Shown here: positions 16,586 through 27,247 of the stretch, in pieces
How positions within the stretch are numbered: the first letter of the stretch is position 1
How the letters are laid out: every line of letters begins with the position of its first letter
Assembly: GCA_014297435.1 (NCBI GenBank)
Contig: JACOQA010000003.1
Span: forward strand, 124,001 to 188,000
Source: Candidatus Nanohaloarchaea archaeon
GTDB taxonomy: Archaea; Nanohalarchaeota; Nanosalinia; Nanosalinales; Nanosalinaceae
Reading direction: 5' to 3'
DNA: 64,000 bases
The notes under the pieces: generated by a model
Databases searched by the model: none
What the model saw: the letters and a program-made list of their open reading frames with translations, nothing else
Told to the model about the DNA's origin: nothing
Translations under genes and position numbers: made by a program

Positions 16586-17656
16586 ATGCAAGAAAAACAA
16601 TTCGTACAGAAAGGAGCCAGAAAGGTTCGTCTTCACGAGTTTCTGAAAGACGAGCTTGAAGGCGCAGGTTACTCTCACGCAGATATCGTGAGAACACCTA
16701 CATCGACAAAAGTCGTGATTTACGCACAGAGACCTGGACTCGTTATTGGAAGAGGTGGTTCCCGTATCAAGGAACTTACTTCTGACATGGAAGCAGAGTT
16801 CAACTTTGAGAACCCTCAGATAGAGGTAAACGAGATCGACGAACCTGATGCAGACGCACAGGTAGTCGCACAGTCCATGGCTGACTGGCTTGAGAAAGGC
16901 GGTCGCGCCAAAAGGGTTGGCTACACCTACCTTCGCAGGATGAAGGAAGCAGGTGTCCCAGGTGCAGAGATCGAGATCTCCGGAAAGCTTTCCGGAAACC
17001 GTGGAAGAACAGAAAAATTCTCGTTCGGATACGTAAAGATCTGCGGAAACACAGCAAAGGAAAACGTAGACCGCGGATACGAACTAGCTAGAACCAAGCC
17101 AGGTGCAATCGGAGTAAAGGTCAGGATGATGGAAGAAATGCCTGACTTCATGCACAGAGACGTAGATGTAGAGGAAGAGATCATGCATGAAACAGTTGAA
17201 GGCGGAGAATCCGTTGAAAAGGCAGAGAGAATTTCCGAGATCATCCAGGAAGCAGACAACATGACAGCAGCCGAGATCGAAGACGCTATCGAGACACTTG
17301 AAGAGGTCAAGACCTCTGACATCTCGAAGGACGAAGTAAGACAAGTCTTCGAGGACGGCGGACACGAAGAAACTTCAGAAGATGACGAAGAGGAAGCTGT
17401 TTCCGAAGAACCTGAGGAAGAAGATCAGGACGAATCGAAGGCAGACGAAGAAGCACCAGTAGAAGACACGGAAAAGTCTGACGAATCTGAAGGCGACGAA
17501 ACAGAGTACGCGGAAATCGTCTCAGGAACCATCAGCGATGCAAAGGACGCAATTGACGAACTTGAAGAGCCTGACTTCGCAGAGCTTCTTGCTGCTGAAG
17601 AGGCAGACAAAAACCGAACAACCTTTATTGACTGGTTGGAGAACAAGAAAGAATAA
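16586..17656 (+). CDS. rps3: Ribosomal protein S3 with acidic linker and extra C-terminal module
   Basis: KH-domain RPGLVIGRGGSRIKELT; about 130-aa acidic extension after the S3 core. Confidence 0.95.
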   Translation: MQEKQFVQKGARKVRLHEFLKDELEGAGYSHADIVRTPTSTKVVIYAQRPGLVIGRGGSRIKELTSDMEAEFNFENPQIEVNEIDEPDADAQVVAQSMADWLEKGGRAKRVGYTYLRRMKEAGVPGAEIEISGKLSGNRGRTEKFSFGYVKICGNTAKENVDRGYELARTKPGAIGVKVRMMEEMPDFMHRDVDVEEEIMHETVEGGESVEKAERISEIIQEADNMTAAEIEDAIETLEEVKTSDISKDEVRQVFEDGGHEETSEDDEEEAVSEEPEEEDQDESKADEEAPVEDTEKSDESEGDETEYAEIVSGTISDAKDAIDELEEPDFAELLAAEEADKNRTTFIDWLENKKE

Positions 17657-17680
17657 AAGCAGAGTAAGGAGTGATTACAC

Positions 17681-17878
17681 ATGGCGATTCTAAAGGCAGA
17701 CGAGATCAGGGACATGAGCGAAGATGAGGCTCGAGAGAGACTCAACGACCTCAAGAAGGAAATTGTAGAGGAAAAAGGACAAATTGAGACAGGAGGATTC
17801 GCTGAAGACCCTGGAAGAATCAAGGAGATGAGGAGAACCATCGCCCGCATCAAAACAGTTCTCAACGAAAAGGAGTAA
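17681..17878 (+). CDS. rpl29: Ribosomal protein L29
   Basis: Small helical protein LKADEIRDMSEDEARERLNDLKKEI...RIKEMRRTIARIKTVLNEK. Confidence 0.92.
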   Translation: MAILKADEIRDMSEDEARERLNDLKKEIVEEKGQIETGGFAEDPGRIKEMRRTIARIKTVLNEKE

Positions 17879-17888
17879 ACGTACCAAG

Positions 17889-18194
17889 ATGTCAGATCTT
17901 AACGACGATAACCTACCGGACGACTTCGACCCTATGGACCAGCTTGCACGGTCCGAACAAACCATCACAGTCAAGATCGACACTCGTAGCTTCGGCAAGG
18001 AAATGACTGTTGTCGAAGGATTCGGGGACGATGTCGATATTTCTGAACTCGCATCCACCCTCAAGTCCAAGCTTGCATGCGGTGGAACCGCGAAGAATGG
18101 ACAGATCCAGCTCCAGGGAGATCACCTGAGGAGGATTGAAGAAGTTCTCGAAGGCGAAGGCTTCGACCGGGAGAACATCGACGTCAAACGCTAG
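17889..18194 (+). CDS. Translation initiation factor SUI1/aIF1
   Basis: ELASTLKSKLACGGTAKNGQIQLQGDHLRRIEEVLEGEGF. Confidence 0.95.
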   Translation: MSDLNDDNLPDDFDPMDQLARSEQTITVKIDTRSFGKEMTVVEGFGDDVDISELASTLKSKLACGGTAKNGQIQLQGDHLRRIEEVLEGEGFDRENIDVKR

Positions 18195-18280
18195 AAACTC
18201 CGTTCAAAAGCTTTCTTTGAACGGTTTCACAGCCCTTTTTACTTCCCAACTTTTAATTCTAGAATCCCTAATTCAACTAT

Positions 18281-18811
18281 ATGCCAGGACCTGTATTCCT
18301 AGAAGGAGAAGAAGCTGAACTAAGAACTATCGAGGAAGGAGATATTGAATTCCTCAGAGACAGTGTAAACCTTCCTGTTATCCGTAGAAACATTTTATCG
18401 GTAAGAAAACCGGAAAATAGAGCCAGCAGCGAGGACTTCTTCGAGAACGTAGTATGTTCTGACAATACTGTCCATTTCCTTATCTGTAAAGACGGCGAGA
18501 GAGCCGGCATAATCTCGGTAGAGGATAAAGGAACTGTGGAGAAGCTTGGACAGCTAGGTCTCTGGATACACCCAGATTACCATAACCAGGGTCTTGGAAC
18601 AGAGTCAACCAAACTAATGATTGAGCACGCCTTCGAACAGCTGGACTATCACAAACTGTATGCACGAGTCCACGAGAATAACGAGGCATCACAAGCACTC
18701 TGGGAAAAACTTGAGTTCGAGAAAGAAGGAAGACTGAAGGAACACTGTTACACAAACGGAGAATACATCGATGTAATTATGTACGGAATGCTTAGGAGGG
18801 ATTGGAGATGA
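18281..18811 (+). CDS. GNAT acetyltransferase (RimJ/RimL-like)
   Basis: WIHPDYHNQGLGTESTKLMIEHAFEQLDYHKLYARVHENNEASQALWEKLEF. Confidence 0.88.
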   Translation: MPGPVFLEGEEAELRTIEEGDIEFLRDSVNLPVIRRNILSVRKPENRASSEDFFENVVCSDNTVHFLICKDGERAGIISVEDKGTVEKLGQLGLWIHPDYHNQGLGTESTKLMIEHAFEQLDYHKLYARVHENNEASQALWEKLEFEKEGRLKEHCYTNGEYIDVIMYGMLRRDWR

Positions 18812-19335
18812 CAAGGTTTATGGAACGCGACGGAGTTGTATTTAGACCGGTAGAGGAAGAGGACAAGGAATTCCTTAGAAAGCTAATTAACCATGAAAAT
18901 GTCAGAGACACAATCGGCATGGCTCCTAAACCAAAGAACCTGAAGGACGAAGAAGAACATGTCGAGTTAGCTAGTGAACAAGATGATGCAGCTTACTTCC
19001 TGATAGAGTACGAAGGCGAAAAGGTCGGAACAATCTCACTTGAAAATATTAACAGAGATTACCGTAGATGTCACCTAGGTCTGTCGATCCATCCGGATTA
19101 TCACGGGCAGGGAATCGGAACCACAAGCGTACAGATGATCACAGATTACGCATTCAAAGACCTCAACATGCACAAGGTGAGAGGCGGCTACCTCGAACAC
19201 AACCCTGCTTCGAAAAGAATTATGGAGAAAGCCGGGTTTCAGGAAGAAGGAATAGAAAGAGAGTTCAAATTGGTTGACGGTGGCTGGAAAGATGTTATCT
19301 GGATGAGCATCCTCGAACAAGAGTGGCGAGAATGA
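18808..19335 (+). CDS. GNAT acetyltransferase (RimJ/RimL-like)
   Basis: SIHPDYHGQGIGTTSVQMITDYAFKDLNMHKVRGGYLEHNPASKRIMEKAGF. Confidence 0.88.
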   Translation: MTRFMERDGVVFRPVEEEDKEFLRKLINHENVRDTIGMAPKPKNLKDEEEHVELASEQDDAAYFLIEYEGEKVGTISLENINRDYRRCHLGLSIHPDYHGQGIGTTSVQMITDYAFKDLNMHKVRGGYLEHNPASKRIMEKAGFQEEGIEREFKLVDGGWKDVIWMSILEQEWRE

Positions 19336-19815
19336 GAGTTAGAGAAGCCAGGAAGAAAGATGTTGAAGGTATTAGTGAGATAGCGGAGAAGACATGGATG
19401 GATTCTTACAGCTCGATCATTTCTGAAAGCACTATTCAGAAGGTTATCGATGACTGTTATGATTTAGATTCCTTAGAATATCAGCTGGATAAAGGTCTTT
19501 TCTACGTAGCCGAAGAAGACAACGAAGTAATCGGTTTCGCCCACGCAGGTTCCCGAAGACGGAAGTAAAGCCAATCTCTACCGGATCTACGTTGATCCAA
19601 ATTCTCAGAGAAAAGGTGCCGGCTCAAGGCTCTATGAGAAAATAGAGAATGAACTAAAGGATAGAGATATCGAAGGAATTAGACTGGAAGTCGTGTCTGA
19701 AAATGAGAAAGGTTTCAGTTTTTACAGGAAGAACGGATTTGAAACAGTGAATGTGGAGACAGTTGAGTTGAAAGGCGATGAAGTGGACCAGAAAGTTATG
19801 GAGAAAGGGATCTAG
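19332..19815 (+). pseudogene. GNAT acetyltransferase interrupted by a frameshift
   Basis: First frame ends ...EVIGFAHAGSRRRK* near 19568; shifted frame continues EDGSKANLYRIYVDPNSQRKGAGSRLYEKIENELKDRDIEGIRLEVVSENEKGFSFYRKNGFE...*. Confidence 0.75.
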
Positions 19816-19941
19816 AGTTATGGTATTGAATACTTGATTATAAGTTTGCCTATTGAGGTCAGTAAGCTCTTAGGAATCTAGTTCTTGAGAAAATAGGCTT
19901 CTCCCTAAACCCATTTAATTGTTACTATGTAATAACAAAGT

Positions 19942-20718
19942 ATGTCGTTATTTGTTCAAAGGCAGCAACGCGGTATAGAAGCCGAGTTCGAGGATATTTT
20001 GCTAAATGACCCGCTCGGCCATGGAGCTGAATTGAACGAAGAGGCAATTGAGGATATATTCAGGGTCATAGAACTAGCAGACCGAGAGATCAATCACGGC
20101 TTCGCGGAAAGAGACTATATCTTTGATCATGGAAGAGCTGCCTTTGACTCCGATAAAGGAGGCGACAAAATCTCTATATCAATGGCTACAGAGTTCAAGC
20201 CCTTCAGACTCTGCCACGAGCTGGGACACAGCGCATACCATTCAGAGATACGGGAAAAAGTACCTGAATCTGACCCGGAGCCGATAAGAACTTCCTATTC
20301 CGAAGCATTCGCTGAACTTACTGCCTACCACCTCTTCGATCAGGTAGAAATGGACTACTCTGAATCCATACCAGAAAGAAACCCTTACACAAATCCTGAT
20401 CAGACAAGATTCTACGCCGAACTCGTAGAGGAAGATATACCTGACTGGAAGGAACACCATGAGAACTCAGATCTTCAGGTTGACTTACAGCACCACTCCG
20501 CAAACCTAATTGGTAGGAAGATGAGTGAGAAGGGATTAAACCCGAATAATGCCCTAGACTCAACACAACAGTTCTTCTCATTAGTGCGTCAAGGCCTCGA
20601 AGCAGTTGTGGAACACGGCACAGAGCTCTACAGACAGGGAGAGCTCGAACAGATCTACCCGCAGGGAAAAGAGAGATACGAGGAGAGACTGGACCAGATA
20701 ATAGAAAACAACTTCTGA
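19942..20718 (+). CDS. Putative zinc metallopeptidase-like protein (HExGH)
   Basis: FRLCHELGHSAYHSE plus downstream conserved-looking EAFAELTAYHLF. Confidence 0.55.
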   Translation: MSLFVQRQQRGIEAEFEDILLNDPLGHGAELNEEAIEDIFRVIELADREINHGFAERDYIFDHGRAAFDSDKGGDKISISMATEFKPFRLCHELGHSAYHSEIREKVPESDPEPIRTSYSEAFAELTAYHLFDQVEMDYSESIPERNPYTNPDQTRFYAELVEEDIPDWKEHHENSDLQVDLQHHSANLIGRKMSEKGLNPNNALDSTQQFFSLVRQGLEAVVEHGTELYRQGELEQIYPQGKERYEERLDQIIENNF

Positions 20719-20773
20719 CCCTCCAAAAGAACTATCAAAAGACCGTAAAAAATACCGAGAAACAAATTTATTT

Positions 20774-21988
20774 ATGGAGAAAGTCTTCCCCAAGTATGGC
20801 GAGGCATCGCTGGCAGACATTCCCGGAACAGTACTCTCCCTCTTTAATATAGAATCAGACCTAACCCGGTTAGACGAAGATATAGTTAATTCAGAGGAAG
20901 ACTACGAAAACGTAGTAGTAATTCTGATCGACGGTCTTGGACTAAACCAGTTAGAGAATTTTTCAAGAGGTTTTTTTGAAGAAGCTAAACAATCTGGAGA
21001 GCTTAAGGGGATTACTAGTGTATTTCCGTCAGCGACCCCAGCCACGCTTACCAGTATTAACACCGGCAAAACACCTAAAGAACATGGTTTGCTTGGATGG
21101 GAGATGTACTACGAGGAGATAGACTCGAATATCTTTACACTACCTTTTCTGACAACAGAGGGCGAAAAACCTCAAGATGCATTCGAGGAAGTTGACCCGA
21201 AGATGCTTTTCGAAGGCGAACCTATCTACCCAAGGCTTGAACAGAATGATGTAAACTGTTTTTCAGTAACTAAAGAGGATATTGTAGACAGCGAGTACAC
21301 TGAGATGGTCAAAAAGGGGTCGGAGATAGTGCCTTACCTGAACACTGCCGATATGGCGCTACAAATCAGGAGAACCCTGGAAGAAAATGAAGGTAAAAAG
21401 TACATCTATGCTTACACGTCCGATATTGATTCGATCTCCCATATGCGGGGTCCGAAGACTGAGGATGAGCGCAATCAGCTGGAGATGATCTCTGAGACCC
21501 TTAACAGAAATCTGGTTGAGGAGATGGATGAGGAAACAGCCGAGGACACTCTCGTGTTAATTACAGCCGATCACGGCCAGATCGAGCATGATGAAAAGGT
21601 GGATCTCTTCCAGTGGGATAATGTAGGTGAAAGCCTGAAGACGGATGACAACGGCGACTTGATAACTCCGACAGGTAACGGAGGTCGCTCCATCTTCCTA
21701 CATGTGAAAGAGGAGAAGCTCGATGAACTGCACAGCTTTCTGAACGAAAAGCTTGATGCAGAGGTAATGAAGACAGAGACAGCTCTAGAAGAAGGATACT
21801 TCGGTGAAGGAGAACTAGCAGATAATTTCAAGGCAAGAGCCGGAGAGTTAGTCATAGTTTCAAACGACAACAAAATTCACTGGGGTGAGCCCTGGAACCT
21901 TGAAGACATCGGGGTTCATGGAGGACTACATCAGGAAGAGATGAAGATTCCGTTGCTGAAGTTTGAGTTATCCGATTTAAGGAGGTAG
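20774..21988 (+). CDS. Alkaline phosphatase superfamily / type I phosphodiesterase-like hydrolase
   Basis: VVVILIDGLGLNQL, FPSATPATLTSINTGKTPKEHGLLGW, LITADHGQIEHDE, GVHGGLHQEEM. Confidence 0.87.
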   Translation: MEKVFPKYGEASLADIPGTVLSLFNIESDLTRLDEDIVNSEEDYENVVVILIDGLGLNQLENFSRGFFEEAKQSGELKGITSVFPSATPATLTSINTGKTPKEHGLLGWEMYYEEIDSNIFTLPFLTTEGEKPQDAFEEVDPKMLFEGEPIYPRLEQNDVNCFSVTKEDIVDSEYTEMVKKGSEIVPYLNTADMALQIRRTLEENEGKKYIYAYTSDIDSISHMRGPKTEDERNQLEMISETLNRNLVEEMDEETAEDTLVLITADHGQIEHDEKVDLFQWDNVGESLKTDDNGDLITPTGNGGRSIFLHVKEEKLDELHSFLNEKLDAEVMKTETALEEGYFGEGELADNFKARAGELVIVSNDNKIHWGEPWNLEDIGVHGGLHQEEMKIPLLKFELSDLRR

Positions 21989-22045
21989 ATTTCAAAACCT
22001 AGAAATTGGGAAAAACTCAAAAATCGGCGTGAAAAACCTCTAAAT

Positions 22046-22648
22046 ATGAGAGATACCGTCAAGAAAGGCTACGAAGAAGGCGACTACGAAGGAGAGTATC
22101 GAGAGAACAGAGAGATAGTTGAAAAAGAAAAACAGCTGTTCAAGAAGCTTTCTGACAACATCAAAGGCGATAAAGTACTTGATCTGGGTTGCGGTACGGG
22201 CGTTCCTTTCGATCGTTACCTCGTTGACGAGGGCTTCGACTTGACAGGTATCGATATATCAGAGAAACACATCAGAAAGGCAAGAGAAAACATACCTGAA
22301 GCCAAATTTCTTCAGGGAGACTTCTTTGATCAGGACTTCGGAGAGAACAGTTTCGATGCCGTAGTAAGTTTCTACGCTATCTTCCATATACCTAGAGAAG
22401 AACACCAGAAGCTTTTCGAAGAGGTGAGGCCCTGGTTGAAAGACGATGGAGCCCTACTTGTCACGATGGGTGCTGAAGAAATGGAGCAGCATAAAGAAGA
22501 AATAGGAGGAGGTGAACTTGTCTGGAGCTCCTACTCACGCGAGAAGAACAAAGAGCTAATAGAAAAAGCCGGGTTCAATATTTTGGAAACGTACGTAGAG
22601 GATTGGCGCGAGGAAACACATCTATGGATACTTGCCGAGCCCAACTAG
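22046..22648 (+). CDS. SAM-dependent methyltransferase
   Basis: KVLDLGCGTGVPFDRYL, FDAVVSFYAIFHIPREEH. Confidence 0.9.
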   Translation: MRDTVKKGYEEGDYEGEYRENREIVEKEKQLFKKLSDNIKGDKVLDLGCGTGVPFDRYLVDEGFDLTGIDISEKHIRKARENIPEAKFLQGDFFDQDFGENSFDAVVSFYAIFHIPREEHQKLFEEVRPWLKDDGALLVTMGAEEMEQHKEEIGGGELVWSSYSREKNKELIEKAGFNILETYVEDWREETHLWILAEPN

Positions 22649-23286
22649 AAATCCTCACCATCCATCTCCATCTCTATTCTTTCAATAGCTTGTTTATGCC
22701 TCTCTAAACGTTTCTCCGCCACTTTCTTAGTATAGTCAAAGTTAAGCTTCTTCATCTGTCCTCTATAGCGGTCAACTGCAGAGTCCCAGAAGTATTCTAG
22801 GCTATCATCAAAAGTTCTTTCGTGTTCGGCTGCGTAATGTATCTGCCGCCAGAGGTTGTTTACACCGAAGTTTGAAACCTTGTCAGCATCCTGCACAATT
22901 TTTCCTTCGACAGTTTGAGGTTCGGAGTGATGGTTCCTGATAATTCTTTGAATTTTCTTGAGCTGGTCTTCTGTAACAAAGTCAGAAACGTATTCCTCGA
23001 TTATCTTGGCTCCTCTTTCATCGTGTCCTTCATGTCCTTCAAAAGGATCCATCTCACCGTCTTCAATATCCTCTTTTCTGCCGATATCATGGTAGAGAGC
23101 GGCGATCTCCAAAACGTTCTCATCTATCTCCTCACTTGTTTCGACGTTTTGTTTCAGTTTGTGTACGATCTCTAGAACCGTTTTAAGGTGTCTGTAACGG
23201 TAGTTCTTTCCCCCGGCTATCTCGGTATAGTTTGAGAACTCGTCTTTCAGCCTTGATTTAAGCTCTTCTTCGACCTCTTTCTCCAT
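22645..23286 (-). CDS. HD-domain phosphohydrolase
   Basis: RHLKTVLEIVHKL...AALYHDIGRKED...IIRNHHSE. Confidence 0.85.
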   Translation of the reverse strand: MEKEVEEELKSRLKDEFSNYTEIAGGKNYRYRHLKTVLEIVHKLKQNVETSEEIDENVLEIAALYHDIGRKEDIEDGEMDPFEGHEGHDERGAKIIEEYVSDFVTEDQLKKIQRIIRNHHSEPQTVEGKIVQDADKVSNFGVNNLWRQIHYAAEHERTFDDSLEYFWDSAVDRYRGQMKKLNFDYTKKVAEKRLERHKQAIERIEMEMDGEDF

Positions 23287-23347
23287 AGAATAGTTATTGG
23301 AACAGAAAATCTTACAAGTTTGAGTTGAAAGTTAAAGGGGTAAAAGT

Positions 23348-23465
23348 AGTCTGGCAGCGTCCCGGAACTCCCGCCTGTAAGGCAGTACCGACCGGATCGC
23401 TGAGGGACTTTACTTCCGTGTTCGGGATGGGTACGGGTGTAACCCCCTCGCTCTGACCGCCAGTA
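23348..23465 (-). rRNA. rrf: 5S ribosomal RNA
   Basis: Reverse complement contains CCCGTACCCATCCCGAACACGGAAGTAAAGTCCCTCAGCG with complementary ends CTGGCGGTC...ACGCTGCCAG. Confidence 0.93.
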
Positions 23466-23551
23466 TCACAAATATCAGGTTTAACTCTTATAAACAGTGA
23501 TGGCGTTTAAGTCACGAAACATTCAAGCCCTTCCTAAGGTAATCTTTGGTT

Positions 23552-24037
23552 ATGAGAATTAGAACCGCGGATATCGAGGACAGAGAAATCTTGGCTCATG
23601 AGATGTGGATAGAACTTGCCGAGATGATGGAGCCTTACAGCGAAGCTAACGAGCTTAAGGAAGATCCTAAAGAGCTTGCTTTAAACGGATTCGAGAATGT
23701 TCTAGAAAGCGAAGATTACGAGACATTTCTAATCGAAAAAGACGGCAACGAAATAGGTTTCATGAACGTCAAGGTAGAGGAAAAAACCACTTTCAAGATG
23801 GATAAATGCTTGGACATAGTCGACCTTTTCATCAAAGAAGGTTTTCGTGGCGAGGGCTACGGAACCAAGTTAGTTGAGAAAGCGGAAGAATACGCAGATA
23901 AAACCGGATGCGATTACATAACCGTTTCCGCCGAGTGGAAGAACAAGAAAGCACAGGAGTTCTACGAGAAGAAAGGTTTTAAGCAAAAGCAGGTTCAGTT
24001 CATCAAATTGAGGGATGAAAAATGGAGCAGGCGATAA
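23552..24037 (+). CDS. GNAT acetyltransferase
   Basis: FRGEGYGTKLVEKAEEYADKTGCDYITVSAEWKNKKAQEFYEKKGF. Confidence 0.87.
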   Translation: MRIRTADIEDREILAHEMWIELAEMMEPYSEANELKEDPKELALNGFENVLESEDYETFLIEKDGNEIGFMNVKVEEKTTFKMDKCLDIVDLFIKEGFRGEGYGTKLVEKAEEYADKTGCDYITVSAEWKNKKAQEFYEKKGFKQKQVQFIKLRDEKWSRR

Positions 24038-25002
24038 AGGATAAGATTGAATCAGCTCTTGAAGAAAGTTTTGAGTGGACGAAAATTGAGAAAGGCTTAA
24101 ACAGTGTTTACAGAATCTATTCCGGGAAAAAAAAGTTTATCGTGAAAGTTCATACTAACGAAAACCTTGAATCCGAAAATTTCAAAGCCGAGCCACTCAT
24201 TTACGATGCAATACAGGAAAAAACGGATGTTCCAAGCCCTAAAGTCATACATGAATCACTTGATGACGAAGAGTTCAGCTTCTATGTCATGGAATTAATT
24301 GAAGGAGAGAATCCCGGACCAAGAAGAAAGAACTTGGAAATGGAAACCCTTGAAGACTTAATTTTCGAATACGGCAAGATTCTAGGGGAGATACATAGAG
24401 AAATAGGCTTCGAATCCTACGGAGAACTCGAAGGAAGTACGGACGGACCGACAGTCAGGGATAGTTCTGAGAACTGGAGGGATGAGCTCTCTGAAATATT
24501 CCATGTTTATAGGGATATTGTCGAAGACGAGTGGGATAACCCTCCGAAAATGGAAATACCTGATAATTTGGGCTGTATACCTGAGAGACCTAAGCCCTCA
24601 CTTATTCACGTAGACAACAGACTTGACAATCTTCTAGTCGAAGACAATCGGATAACCGGATTTATTGACTGGAGTTTTACACGTACCGGTCATAACGAGT
24701 ACGATCTCATACGGGCAGAATATCTGCTAATAGATTATGATCTAAGATTTCTTAGTGAGACCAAAAAGGAAAGACTCAAAGAAAGCCTTTTCGGAGGGTA
24801 TAGGGAGGAAATTGATCTGGATAAAGATTCTGGGTTCAAAGCAAGGAGACAGTTGTACCGGTATGCCCCGGTTTTCTGGCTGGCTGCAGGGTTTCAGAGC
24901 TGGGGTCAGGACCTAGAAAAAGATGCTTACCAGGAGATGCTCCAGTTGATTATTGAAAGCCTAAAGGAGGAAAAGCCAAAAAATCTTCCCTTCAACCAAT
25001 AG
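24022..25002 (+). CDS. Aminoglycoside phosphotransferase-like kinase
   Basis: LIHVDNRLDNLLVEDNRITGFIDWSFTRTGHNEYDLIRAE. Confidence 0.85.
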   Translation: MEQAIKDKIESALEESFEWTKIEKGLNSVYRIYSGKKKFIVKVHTNENLESENFKAEPLIYDAIQEKTDVPSPKVIHESLDDEEFSFYVMELIEGENPGPRRKNLEMETLEDLIFEYGKILGEIHREIGFESYGELEGSTDGPTVRDSSENWRDELSEIFHVYRDIVEDEWDNPPKMEIPDNLGCIPERPKPSLIHVDNRLDNLLVEDNRITGFIDWSFTRTGHNEYDLIRAEYLLIDYDLRFLSETKKERLKESLFGGYREEIDLDKDSGFKARRQLYRYAPVFWLAAGFQSWGQDLEKDAYQEMLQLIIESLKEEKPKNLPFNQ

Positions 25003-25004
25003 TT

Positions 25005-25289
25005 ATGCCTATCACTCCTGAAAACCTTCCCCGCCACGAACTGATCGGACTTGAATGCGAAGTTGTAGAAGCAAAGGATGAGAACCTGATCGGATTGAAA
25101 GGCGAGGTTCTTGATGAGACTCAATCCCTACTAAGGATTGGTGATACGAAGGTCGAAAAGAAGATCTGCACTTTCGAATTCGAGCTTCCTTCAGGCGAAA
25201 AGGTCGAGCTGGACGGCAAACTGATTGATAAGAGACCTGAGGAACGTGTCGGGATGAAGCTTCCGGGCAAATGGAGTTACGTTGATTGA
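25005..25289 (+). CDS. rnp1: RNase P protein component 1 (Rpp29/Pop4)
   Basis: HELIGLECEVVEAKDENLIGLKGEVLDETQSLLRI. Confidence 0.85.
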   Translation: MPITPENLPRHELIGLECEVVEAKDENLIGLKGEVLDETQSLLRIGDTKVEKKICTFEFELPSGEKVELDGKLIDKRPEERVGMKLPGKWSYVD

Positions 25290-25326
25290 ACGAGCCTTTT
25301 TGAATTTTTGTTACTAACTGGTATGT

Positions 25327-25614
25327 ATGGGAGAGGGGAACTACACTTCGATCGAAGATTATTCTCAAGAAGGAGAGTTTGAGGTTGTGACTGCATTCAA
25401 CCTTGTAAATGAATTTGATATGAATCCTGAGCCAGGGAAGATGTGGGCTGTAGCCGATTATCTTATGAAGTCACTTCAGGGAAAGGACGAGGCTGATTCT
25501 TATGACGAAGCTATCCTCAAGTCGGCGAGAAACACCAGTATTGATCGTGGAGACAACCAACTGGACCTAGCTTACGATACTATCGAGGAGCTTGGAAAGC
25601 TTTACCTCGACTAA
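25327..25614 (+). CDS. Hypothetical protein
   Basis: 95 aa ORF. Confidence 0.5.
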   Translation: MGEGNYTSIEDYSQEGEFEVVTAFNLVNEFDMNPEPGKMWAVADYLMKSLQGKDEADSYDEAILKSARNTSIDRGDNQLDLAYDTIEELGKLYLD

Positions 25615-25647
25615 ACCCCTTTTTAAAACTTTAGTTCTATTGTTGGG

Positions 25648-25771
25648 ATAGCCGCTTGGAGTCGTGAATTGACGAAAGCCTATTGTCCGGGTTTTCAGAT
25701 TGGAGCGATACTCCGGGAGCAGCGAGAGAAAAACCTCGTGTAGAACGTACAGTTTTTCCCGGGTAACTTAC
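25648..25771 (+). ncRNA. Candidate structured non-coding RNA (unidentified)
   Basis: No ORF; TATA-like TTTTTAAAAC about 25 bp upstream; long-range stem TTGTCCGGG/CCCGGGTAA, nested TTTTC..GAGAAAA and GGAG-CGATA-CTCC, plus GCTT-GGA-GTC(7)GAC-GA-AAGC hairpin. Confidence 0.4.
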
Positions 25772-25828
25772 CAGTGGTTTACTTAAAAAGTTTACAATCG
25801 AACGAGACTACATCAGGGCTAAAGAACC

Positions 25829-26110
25829 ATGACAGAATCAATTGAAACCGAATACCCCGTTAGGGGAGGAACTTTCGTTGGGACGGTAGAGTCCACGAAG
25901 ATGCAGAAATCCGCAACAGTAAGATGGGAGTACTCTGAGAAGGTTCCCAAGTACGAGAGGTACGAGAGAAGAAACACCAAGATAACGGTTCACGTGCCCG
26001 AAGACGTAGAGATCGAGGAAGGCGACGAAGTCAAAGTAGGAGAAACGAAGCCTATCTCGAAGACTAAAAGCCATGTTATAATCGAAAAAGTAGAAGACGG
26101 TGAAGAGTAA
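25829..26110 (+). CDS. rps17: Ribosomal protein S17
   Basis: GTFVGTVESTKMQKSATVRWEYSEKVPKYERYERRNTKITVHVP. Confidence 0.95.
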   Translation: MTESIETEYPVRGGTFVGTVESTKMQKSATVRWEYSEKVPKYERYERRNTKITVHVPEDVEIEEGDEVKVGETKPISKTKSHVIIEKVEDGEE

Positions 26111-26509
26111 ATGAAGCCGATCGGATCCAACATAACAAGAACACTGGATATCGGCGCAGAACTTACATGCGCAGATAACTCCGGAGCAAAGAAGCTAGAA
26201 ATCATCGGAGTCAAGGCAAGACAGGGACGACGTTCCCGAAGGAACTCTGCAGGAATCGGAGACAAAGTAATGGTAAAGATCCTGAAGGGAGACCAGGAAG
26301 TCAAGAACCAGGTCTTCGAAGCAGTGATCGTCAGACAGGCAAAGGAATTCCAGAGACCTAACGGACTAAGAGTAGAGTTTGAAGACAACGCAGCAGTACT
26401 AGTGGAAGACACAGGACTTCCAAAAGGATCGGTTACAAGAGGACCTATCGCGAAAGAAGTCGTCGAAAGATACAGCCCGATCGGAAAGATCGCATCACAG
26501 GTGGTGTAA
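26111..26509 (+). CDS. rpl14: Ribosomal protein L14
   Basis: TCADNSGAKKLEIIGVK...GIGDKVMVKILKGDQEVKNQVFEAVIVRQAKEFQRPNG. Confidence 0.96.
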   Translation: MKPIGSNITRTLDIGAELTCADNSGAKKLEIIGVKARQGRRSRRNSAGIGDKVMVKILKGDQEVKNQVFEAVIVRQAKEFQRPNGLRVEFEDNAAVLVEDTGLPKGSVTRGPIAKEVVERYSPIGKIASQVV

Positions 26510-26512
26510 AAA

Positions 26513-27247
26513 ATGGTAAACGAGACAGAGAACTGGAGTAGCAACTGGAAATCAAGCAAGAAACCTTCAAAACAGAGAAAGTACAGAGATAACGCACCTC
26601 TACACGTAAAGGACAAACTTGTTTCTGCACATCTAGACGAAGAACTTAGAGAAGAAGTCGGAACAAGAAACATGCCTCTCAGAACAGGAGACAGAGTAAG
26701 AGTTATGAGAGGAGACCAGAAAGGTGCAGAAGGAATCGTAAACAATATTGACAGAGAAAATACTCGAGTCTACATCGATGGAGTTGAGAACGAGAGAACC
26801 GATGGTTCAACGAACCAGAAGGCTTTCCCTCCATCCAACGTACAGATCGTAGCACTAAACATCGAAGACATCTCAAGGATCGAGAAATACGATGTCGAAG
26901 ACTACGAAGAGATCAAAGTCGAAGAAGAAGAGCTCGAAGAAGCCCTAGCAGAAGATGAAGAAGAGAACGAGATGATGCAGCAGATGCAGGGCGGAGAATC
27001 AGGAGCTCACGAGCAGTTCGAAGAAGACGAAGAAGAAACAGAAGAAGTAGAGGAAGAGACTGAAGAAACAGAAGAGGAAGAAGTTGAAGCCGATTACAGC
27101 GAAGTTGTTTCGCAGAACATCGGCGATGTAAAGGATTCAGTTCAGGAGATGGAAAGCCCTGACTACGATGCTCTGCTCGAAGCAGAGGAAGACAACAAGG
27201 ACAGGAAAACCATGAAGGAATGGATCGAATCTCAAAAAGAGGAGTGA
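26513..27247 (+). CDS. rpl24: Ribosomal protein L24 with acidic linker and extra C-terminal module
   Basis: NMPLRTGDRVRVMRGDQKGAEGIVNNIDRENTRVYIDGV; acidic run then ending resembling the S3 tail. Confidence 0.94.
   Translation: MVNETENWSSNWKSSKKPSKQRKYRDNAPLHVKDKLVSAHLDEELREEVGTRNMPLRTGDRVRVMRGDQKGAEGIVNNIDRENTRVYIDGVENERTDGSTNQKAFPPSNVQIVALNIEDISRIEKYDVEDYEEIKVEEEELEEALAEDEEENEMMQQMQGGESGAHEQFEEDEEETEEVEEETEETEEEEVEADYSEVVSQNIGDVKDSVQEMESPDYDALLEAEEDNKDRKTMKEWIESQKEE

Follow-up and report, generated by a model that had tools for sequence, protein, structure and literature searches.

A helical module shared by ribosomal proteins uS3 and uL24 of a nanohaloarchaeon, and its possible role as a docking domain

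Why do two proteins of different ribosomal subunits end in the same sequence? The question is raised by 64,000 nucleotides of a Candidatus Nanohaloarchaea genome (contig JACOQA010000003.1, positions 124,001 to 188,000; in the following called the window), which encode the ribosomal proteins uS3 and uL24. An earlier inspection of the letters alone (the sequence-only reading) had claimed a common C-terminal module on both proteins, with 24 of 49 positions identical and highly acidic linkers joining it to the ribosomal cores. To our knowledge, domains are rarely shared between ribosomal proteins. Judged from sequence comparison and structure prediction, the two tails are two copies of one autonomous folded domain outside Pfam, NCBIfam and the PDB.

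The two tails and their fold

The uS3 open reading frame occupies 16586-17656 of the plus strand (356 amino acids (aa)). Its ribosomal core (residues 1-186, 16586..17143) consists of KH_2 and the S3 C-terminal domain (Pfam PF07650/PF00189, NCBIfam TIGR01008). A tether follows (17144..17506), in which weakly helical residues 187-257 precede a disordered acidic linker (258-307), as delimited by composition and by the predicted local distance difference test (pLDDT) of AlphaFold2 (AF2). The C-terminus (residues 308-356, 17507..17653) is the first copy of the module, recognized by alignment, profile match and a four-helix model. uL24 is encoded on the same strand (26513-27247, 244 aa), with a KOW core (26513..26884; Pfam PF16906/PF00467, NCBIfam TIGR01080), an acidic linker of 70 residues delimited by composition (26885..27094) and the second copy of the module at its C-terminus (27095..27244; alignment, profile match).

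The claims on these two proteins hold. Both translations are exact, and the tails share 24 of 49 positions in an ungapped alignment, compared to a mean of 3.9 and a maximum of 13 among 20,000 shuffles. Their Smith-Waterman score of 136 stands 22 standard deviations above the shuffles (25.5 +/- 5.0, maximum 51). Aspartate and glutamate make up 56% of the uS3 linker (residues 258-307) and 54% of the uL24 linker (residues 125-194). Neither tail is assigned to a Pfam or NCBIfam family, and no further match to the tails is present within the window.

The module comprises 48 residues. Based on 110 aligned copies, AF2 predicts helices at 2-6, 9-17, 24-34 and 38-48 with a pLDDT of 93.8. E31 and R37 are present in all 110 copies and K13 in 104 of them, while K35, T39 and an aromatic residue at position 43 are nearly invariant. 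Low complexity or chance similarity, an outcome looked for as a refutation, is ruled out by the shuffles, the profile and this fold. In the model of full-length uS3 most of the core reaches about 80-94 and the module about 83-89, with residues 258-305 below 50; the predicted arrangement is thus an independent fold on a disordered linker, as in tethered docking domains. The net charge of the module varies with lineage, from about -10 in the window copies to +2 to +4 in family f36.

The searches did not place the module in a known family. A PDB sequence search returned nothing significant, and Foldseek, for which short domains are hard, found no PDB structure at E<=0.001 (best E 8.9). A structure search of BFVD retrieved just small unnamed viral proteins at E of about 1. 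Pfam models of Ribosomal_L12 matched one or two of the 110 copies (best E 0.06), and E3_binding does not figure among the 25 families with the most matches to these copies. UBA/CUE, a three-helix type raised by eye, is absent from the matches shown and has no PDB fold match; AF2 predicts four helices. DUF5817_CT (PF22798), weakly matched by one copy, was rejected as a candidate, since its genomic matches fall on another protein, about 670 aa long.

Host proteins and distribution

The genome of the window is nanohaloarchaeal (998,768 bp, 15 contigs, completeness 99%), and protein and profile searches locate the module at seven places in six host proteins. Three of these are ribosomal, namely uS3, uL24 and eS24 (the latter by PF01282), a share with a probability of about 0.003 if 60 of 1100 genes are assumed to be ribosomal. 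The others are a membrane protein with PH and zinc-ribbon domains, a protein with a single transmembrane segment (module N-terminal, outer part DsbC_N-like), and a 510-aa coiled-coil protein with two N-terminal copies, the C-terminal part of which resembles FlaD/E by eye, without a Pfam match.

The sequence-only reading had named S3 and L24 as the carriers. Both do carry the module, but it is not confined to them: across lineages, eight ribosomal proteins were identified as hosts by Pfam or similarity (uS3, uL24, eS24, eL31, uL10, eL32, uS4 and eS6), besides many others. On uS3, uL24 and eS24 of the window genome, and on the other ribosomal hosts or Rpo1C of its relatives, the module is C-terminal behind a long acidic linker predicted to be disordered. 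The eL32 carrier occurs in family f33, and the uS4 and eS6 carriers in metagenome-assembled genomes (MAGs) labelled Diapherotrites. Rpo1C carries the module in families f3 and f5, sometimes in two copies. In an E2 acyltransferase (L096) it lies between the lipoyl and E3-binding domains, a region where docking domains sit. Further hosts are a protein with a chemoreceptor signalling domain, a KaiC-like ATPase, a tyrosine recombinase, archaellum-like coiled coils of FlaC type and three recurrent families of membrane proteins; several membrane proteins bear the module at one terminus.

All genomes of family f1 (19/19) have the module on eS24, and wherever uS3 is complete it is there as well. The large-subunit carrier varies; it is uL24 in most genomes, eL31 in G009 and G015, both in G008, and neither in G003. 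On the ribosome, uL24 and eL31 are located at the exit-tunnel rim, uS3 and uS4 near one another where the mRNA enters, and eS24 and eS6 at the foot of the small subunit. Lineages may therefore differ in which of the neighbouring proteins carries the module at each of these three sites.

Zinc-finger motifs occur between core and module in some hosts. In f9, eL31 (L204, L205, L207, L210) has two C2H2 motifs there, with Pfam C2H2 matches on L204. In f36, where uS3 is lysine-rich and non-acidic, this protein (L211, L212) shows, by eye, one C2H2-like motif.

Within the order of the window genome, 27 of 28 genomes contain the module at E<=0.001, typically in 4-11 copies each. Two apparent exceptions were dismissed. 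The 28th genome (G021) has a divergent uS3 copy with an insertion, scoring 12.6 bits and thereby above all 5000 shuffles, and an apparent loss from uS3 of G002 is merely a contig end. Among 32 more distant archaea only G031 matches, the genomes of the other 31 being free of any match; the module is hence not universal on archaeal S3, another outcome that had been looked for as a refutation. Relatives of G031 with the module belong to families f9, f33, f36 and, once, f45. In a wider scan, run with a 10-row subset of the 110-copy alignment, the named carrier genomes are nanohaloarchaea, one Haloarchaeobius and the two MAGs labelled Diapherotrites, which we take from their isolate names to originate from soda-lake sediment. 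Most carriers look like salt-in halophiles. Restriction to halophiles was rejected, because lineages with lysine-rich S3 (f36 and G021) retain the module.

Among Haloarchaeobius relatives, 29 of 41 genomes match, nearly always on EtfA (PF01012/PF00766 on one protein). Haloarchaeal EtfA (L175-L202) is extended at its N-terminus, in a part without annotation, by one or two copies of the domain. Small phage and halovirus proteins (phrog_29632, 29345, 1983) show the same pattern at their C- or N-terminus. In hhalign comparisons, the module matches the EtfA N-terminus with probability 98.0 (E 2.4e-13) and the phage proteins with 96.6, and EtfA matches the phage proteins with 97.4. All three share an invariant E/R pair with a spacing of six positions. 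Profile similarity over the whole domain thus unites them in a single unnamed superfamily. The EtfA extension shares profile and E/R spacing with the module, but differs in being found on essentially one host protein per Halobacteria genome, with no ribosomal hosts seen; the viral proteins differ in being single-copy on a viral host. Viral carriers with the domain at one protein end are located at 2722-3168 of L273, 2740-3162 of L267 and 3989-4384 of L173. They correspond to phrog_29632/29345, and those of L273 and L173 are close to capsid or head-tail genes. A halovirus contig has the carrier gene between genes for a virion structural protein and a head-tail adaptor; in Vibrio phages it is placed between those for the capsid and the tail sheath. 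A tblastn search of phages with the module consensus found no match; with a phage-derived copy it gave weak matches to Vibrio phages.

Selection and gene conversion

Identity within the uS3 proteins of f1 falls from 0.80 in the core to 0.63 in the module and 0.35 in the linker. Modules on the same host in different genomes have a protein identity of 0.65-0.67, with fourfold-site agreement of 0.46 in f1 and 0.33 in f9. The protein is kept while synonymous sites are nearly saturated, and therefore selection acts on the module as a protein.

Some genomes have near-identical module DNA on different hosts. Between eL31 and eS24 the identity is 121/121 bp in G108, 110/111 in G107 and 124/131 in G106; between eS24 and uS3 of G008, a single-contig genome, it is 90%, with agreement at 14/14 fourfold sites. 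No same-host module of another genome comes as close (0.72-0.81 at best). The converted sequence differs from genome to genome, and the tract is roughly limited to the module. Because cross-gene pairs surpass same-gene matches elsewhere and the shared sequence is peculiar to each genome, the DNA comparison indicates that there is repeated gene conversion between modules of different ribosomal genes. Permutation tests also place cross-host similarity within genomes above that between genomes, for uS3-eS24, uS3-uL24 and uL24-eS24 in f1 and for eS24-eL31 in f9 (p 0.0002-0.009 for DNA, a level which could be inflated by genome-wide codon use, and 0.004-0.014 for protein, which is less prone to this). 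Together with the profile search, the AF2 model and the many unrelated hosts, these data strongly support the earlier proposal of an appended mobile helical domain. Gene conversion between essential, unrelated genes is unusual in itself.

The G108 assembly breaks exactly at module copies (L210, L219, L221, L227), as expected for near-identical repeats, and similar module fragments stand at contig ends in G061, G022 and G109. In the window itself, the S10/spc ribosomal cluster is split at 17889-25289 by about 6.7 kb of unrelated genes, bounded by an aIF1/SUI1 gene after uL29 and a gene at 25005-25289 that looks like the RNase P p29 subunit. This segment contains at least three GNAT acetyltransferases, a type I phosphodiesterase, a methyltransferase, an APH-like kinase and, on the minus strand, an HD-domain gene.

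A possible docking function

The existence, fold, spread and gene conversion of the module, taken jointly, appear to us practically certain. Concerning its function, we hypothesize that the module may be a tethered docking domain, present in several equivalent copies per ribosome on both subunits, and that all copies would be recognized by one partner or by each other. Ribosomes, RNA polymerase and some components of the membrane or of motility would in this way be recruited or tied to a common site, with gene conversion preserving the fit between the copies and the partner. The folded unit, the disordered acidic tether, the multiple copies, the RNA polymerase and membrane hosts and the homogenization favour docking with one partner or self-association. 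A docking function of either kind seems probable to us, and for one shared partner in particular we see about even chances. Somewhat below even we place the full picture, in which interchangeable adaptor-binding copies on both subunits (in some families also on RNA polymerase), matched by gene conversion, would modularly tether ribosomes, transcription and membrane proteins, as a system assembled by adding one domain to different ribosomal proteins in each lineage.

Several observations weigh against this proposal. Searches of Pfam, PDB, Foldseek and BFVD yielded no partner and no structural relative of known function, and the hosts are functionally diverse. The uL24 proteins of G009 (L264) and G003 (L265) keep a long acidic tail, ending in GDQ or GDN, without the module, so tail and module appear to be gained or lost separately. 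Homogenization was not seen in the permutation tests for uS3 versus eL31, nor for uS3 versus eS24 in f9, and one partner for all copies is therefore not proven. Finally, helix spacing puts E31 on the core-facing side, so the conservation of E31 and R37 may be structural rather than that of a binding surface.

The likeliest alternative is homotypic association, by which modules would bind each other and cluster ribosomes, RNA polymerase and membrane proteins, or form ribosome dimers or arrays. Some proteins hold tandem copies joined by short linkers (uS3 L087, Rpo1C L089, the FlaC-like L093, and L042), which points in this direction, as does the presence of the module in one genome on membrane proteins and on both subunits, and homogenized copies would suit a self-binding unit. 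However, copies as acidic as those of the window would need screening by high salt, and we regard this explanation as rather unlikely, at roughly one chance in a handful.

More improbable is a salt-adapted acidic cap, shielding the ribosome surface or stabilizing termini with no partner. It would fit the very acidic module and linker of the window and the salt-in appearance of most carriers. On the other hand, the positively charged f36 module is still found on uS3, a plain acidic tail as on the G009 and G003 uL24 would suffice, and a conserved fold with invariant E31 and R37 is needless for shielding. Binding of rRNA, mRNA or DNA by a SAP/HeH-like helical pair has little probability. In its favour, the basic residues K13, K35, R37 and K38 are conserved, the hosts include a tyrosine recombinase besides RNA polymerase and ribosomal proteins, and the Pfam SAP model matched one of the 110 copies (E 0.0016). 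Against it, that match did not recur among the copies, Foldseek found no solved SAP or HeH-like structure, the window copies are strongly negative, and the EtfA, chemoreceptor-like and membrane hosts have no nucleic-acid role. A non-functional 3'-end cassette, spreading by recombination between gene ends, would agree with conversion roughly confined to the module and with presence that varies among hosts, but it is already disfavoured, and very improbable, in view of protein conservation at nearly saturated synonymous sites, retention on every complete f1 uS3 and on all f1 eS24, and the divergent copy kept in G021.

Irrespective of function, an unannotated domain superfamily extending to haloarchaea and phages has been defined. 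A literature search, covering few subscription journals and preprints, found no precedent for one small domain on eight ribosomal proteins and RNA polymerase, and the relevant passages of PMC8116511, PMC7203096, PMC13257274 and PMC6053082 do not mention the module. If the module is indeed a docking handle, its 48 residues would serve as a bait and thereby as a direct biochemical route to what organizes ribosomes in nanosized archaea with small genomes.

Three known systems invite comparison with the proposed tethered docking domain. The peripheral subunit-binding (E3-binding) domain of E2 likewise serves docking, is small and helical and is carried by a flexible linker, and stands side by side with the module in L096, but the two have no sequence match and different motifs. 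In the ribosomal stalk (L12/P-proteins), several copies of one small C-terminal domain on flexible tethers recruit factors, which by analogy resembles multiple tethered copies of the module; stalk copies, however, belong to one protein at one site, whereas the module is found on many different ribosomal proteins of both subunits. According to the passages concerned in PMC6053082, gene conversion keeps the copies of prokaryotic complex subunits alike within a genome (concerted evolution); there, whole paralogous genes are concerned, whereas here it is a 48-codon module in otherwise unrelated genes.

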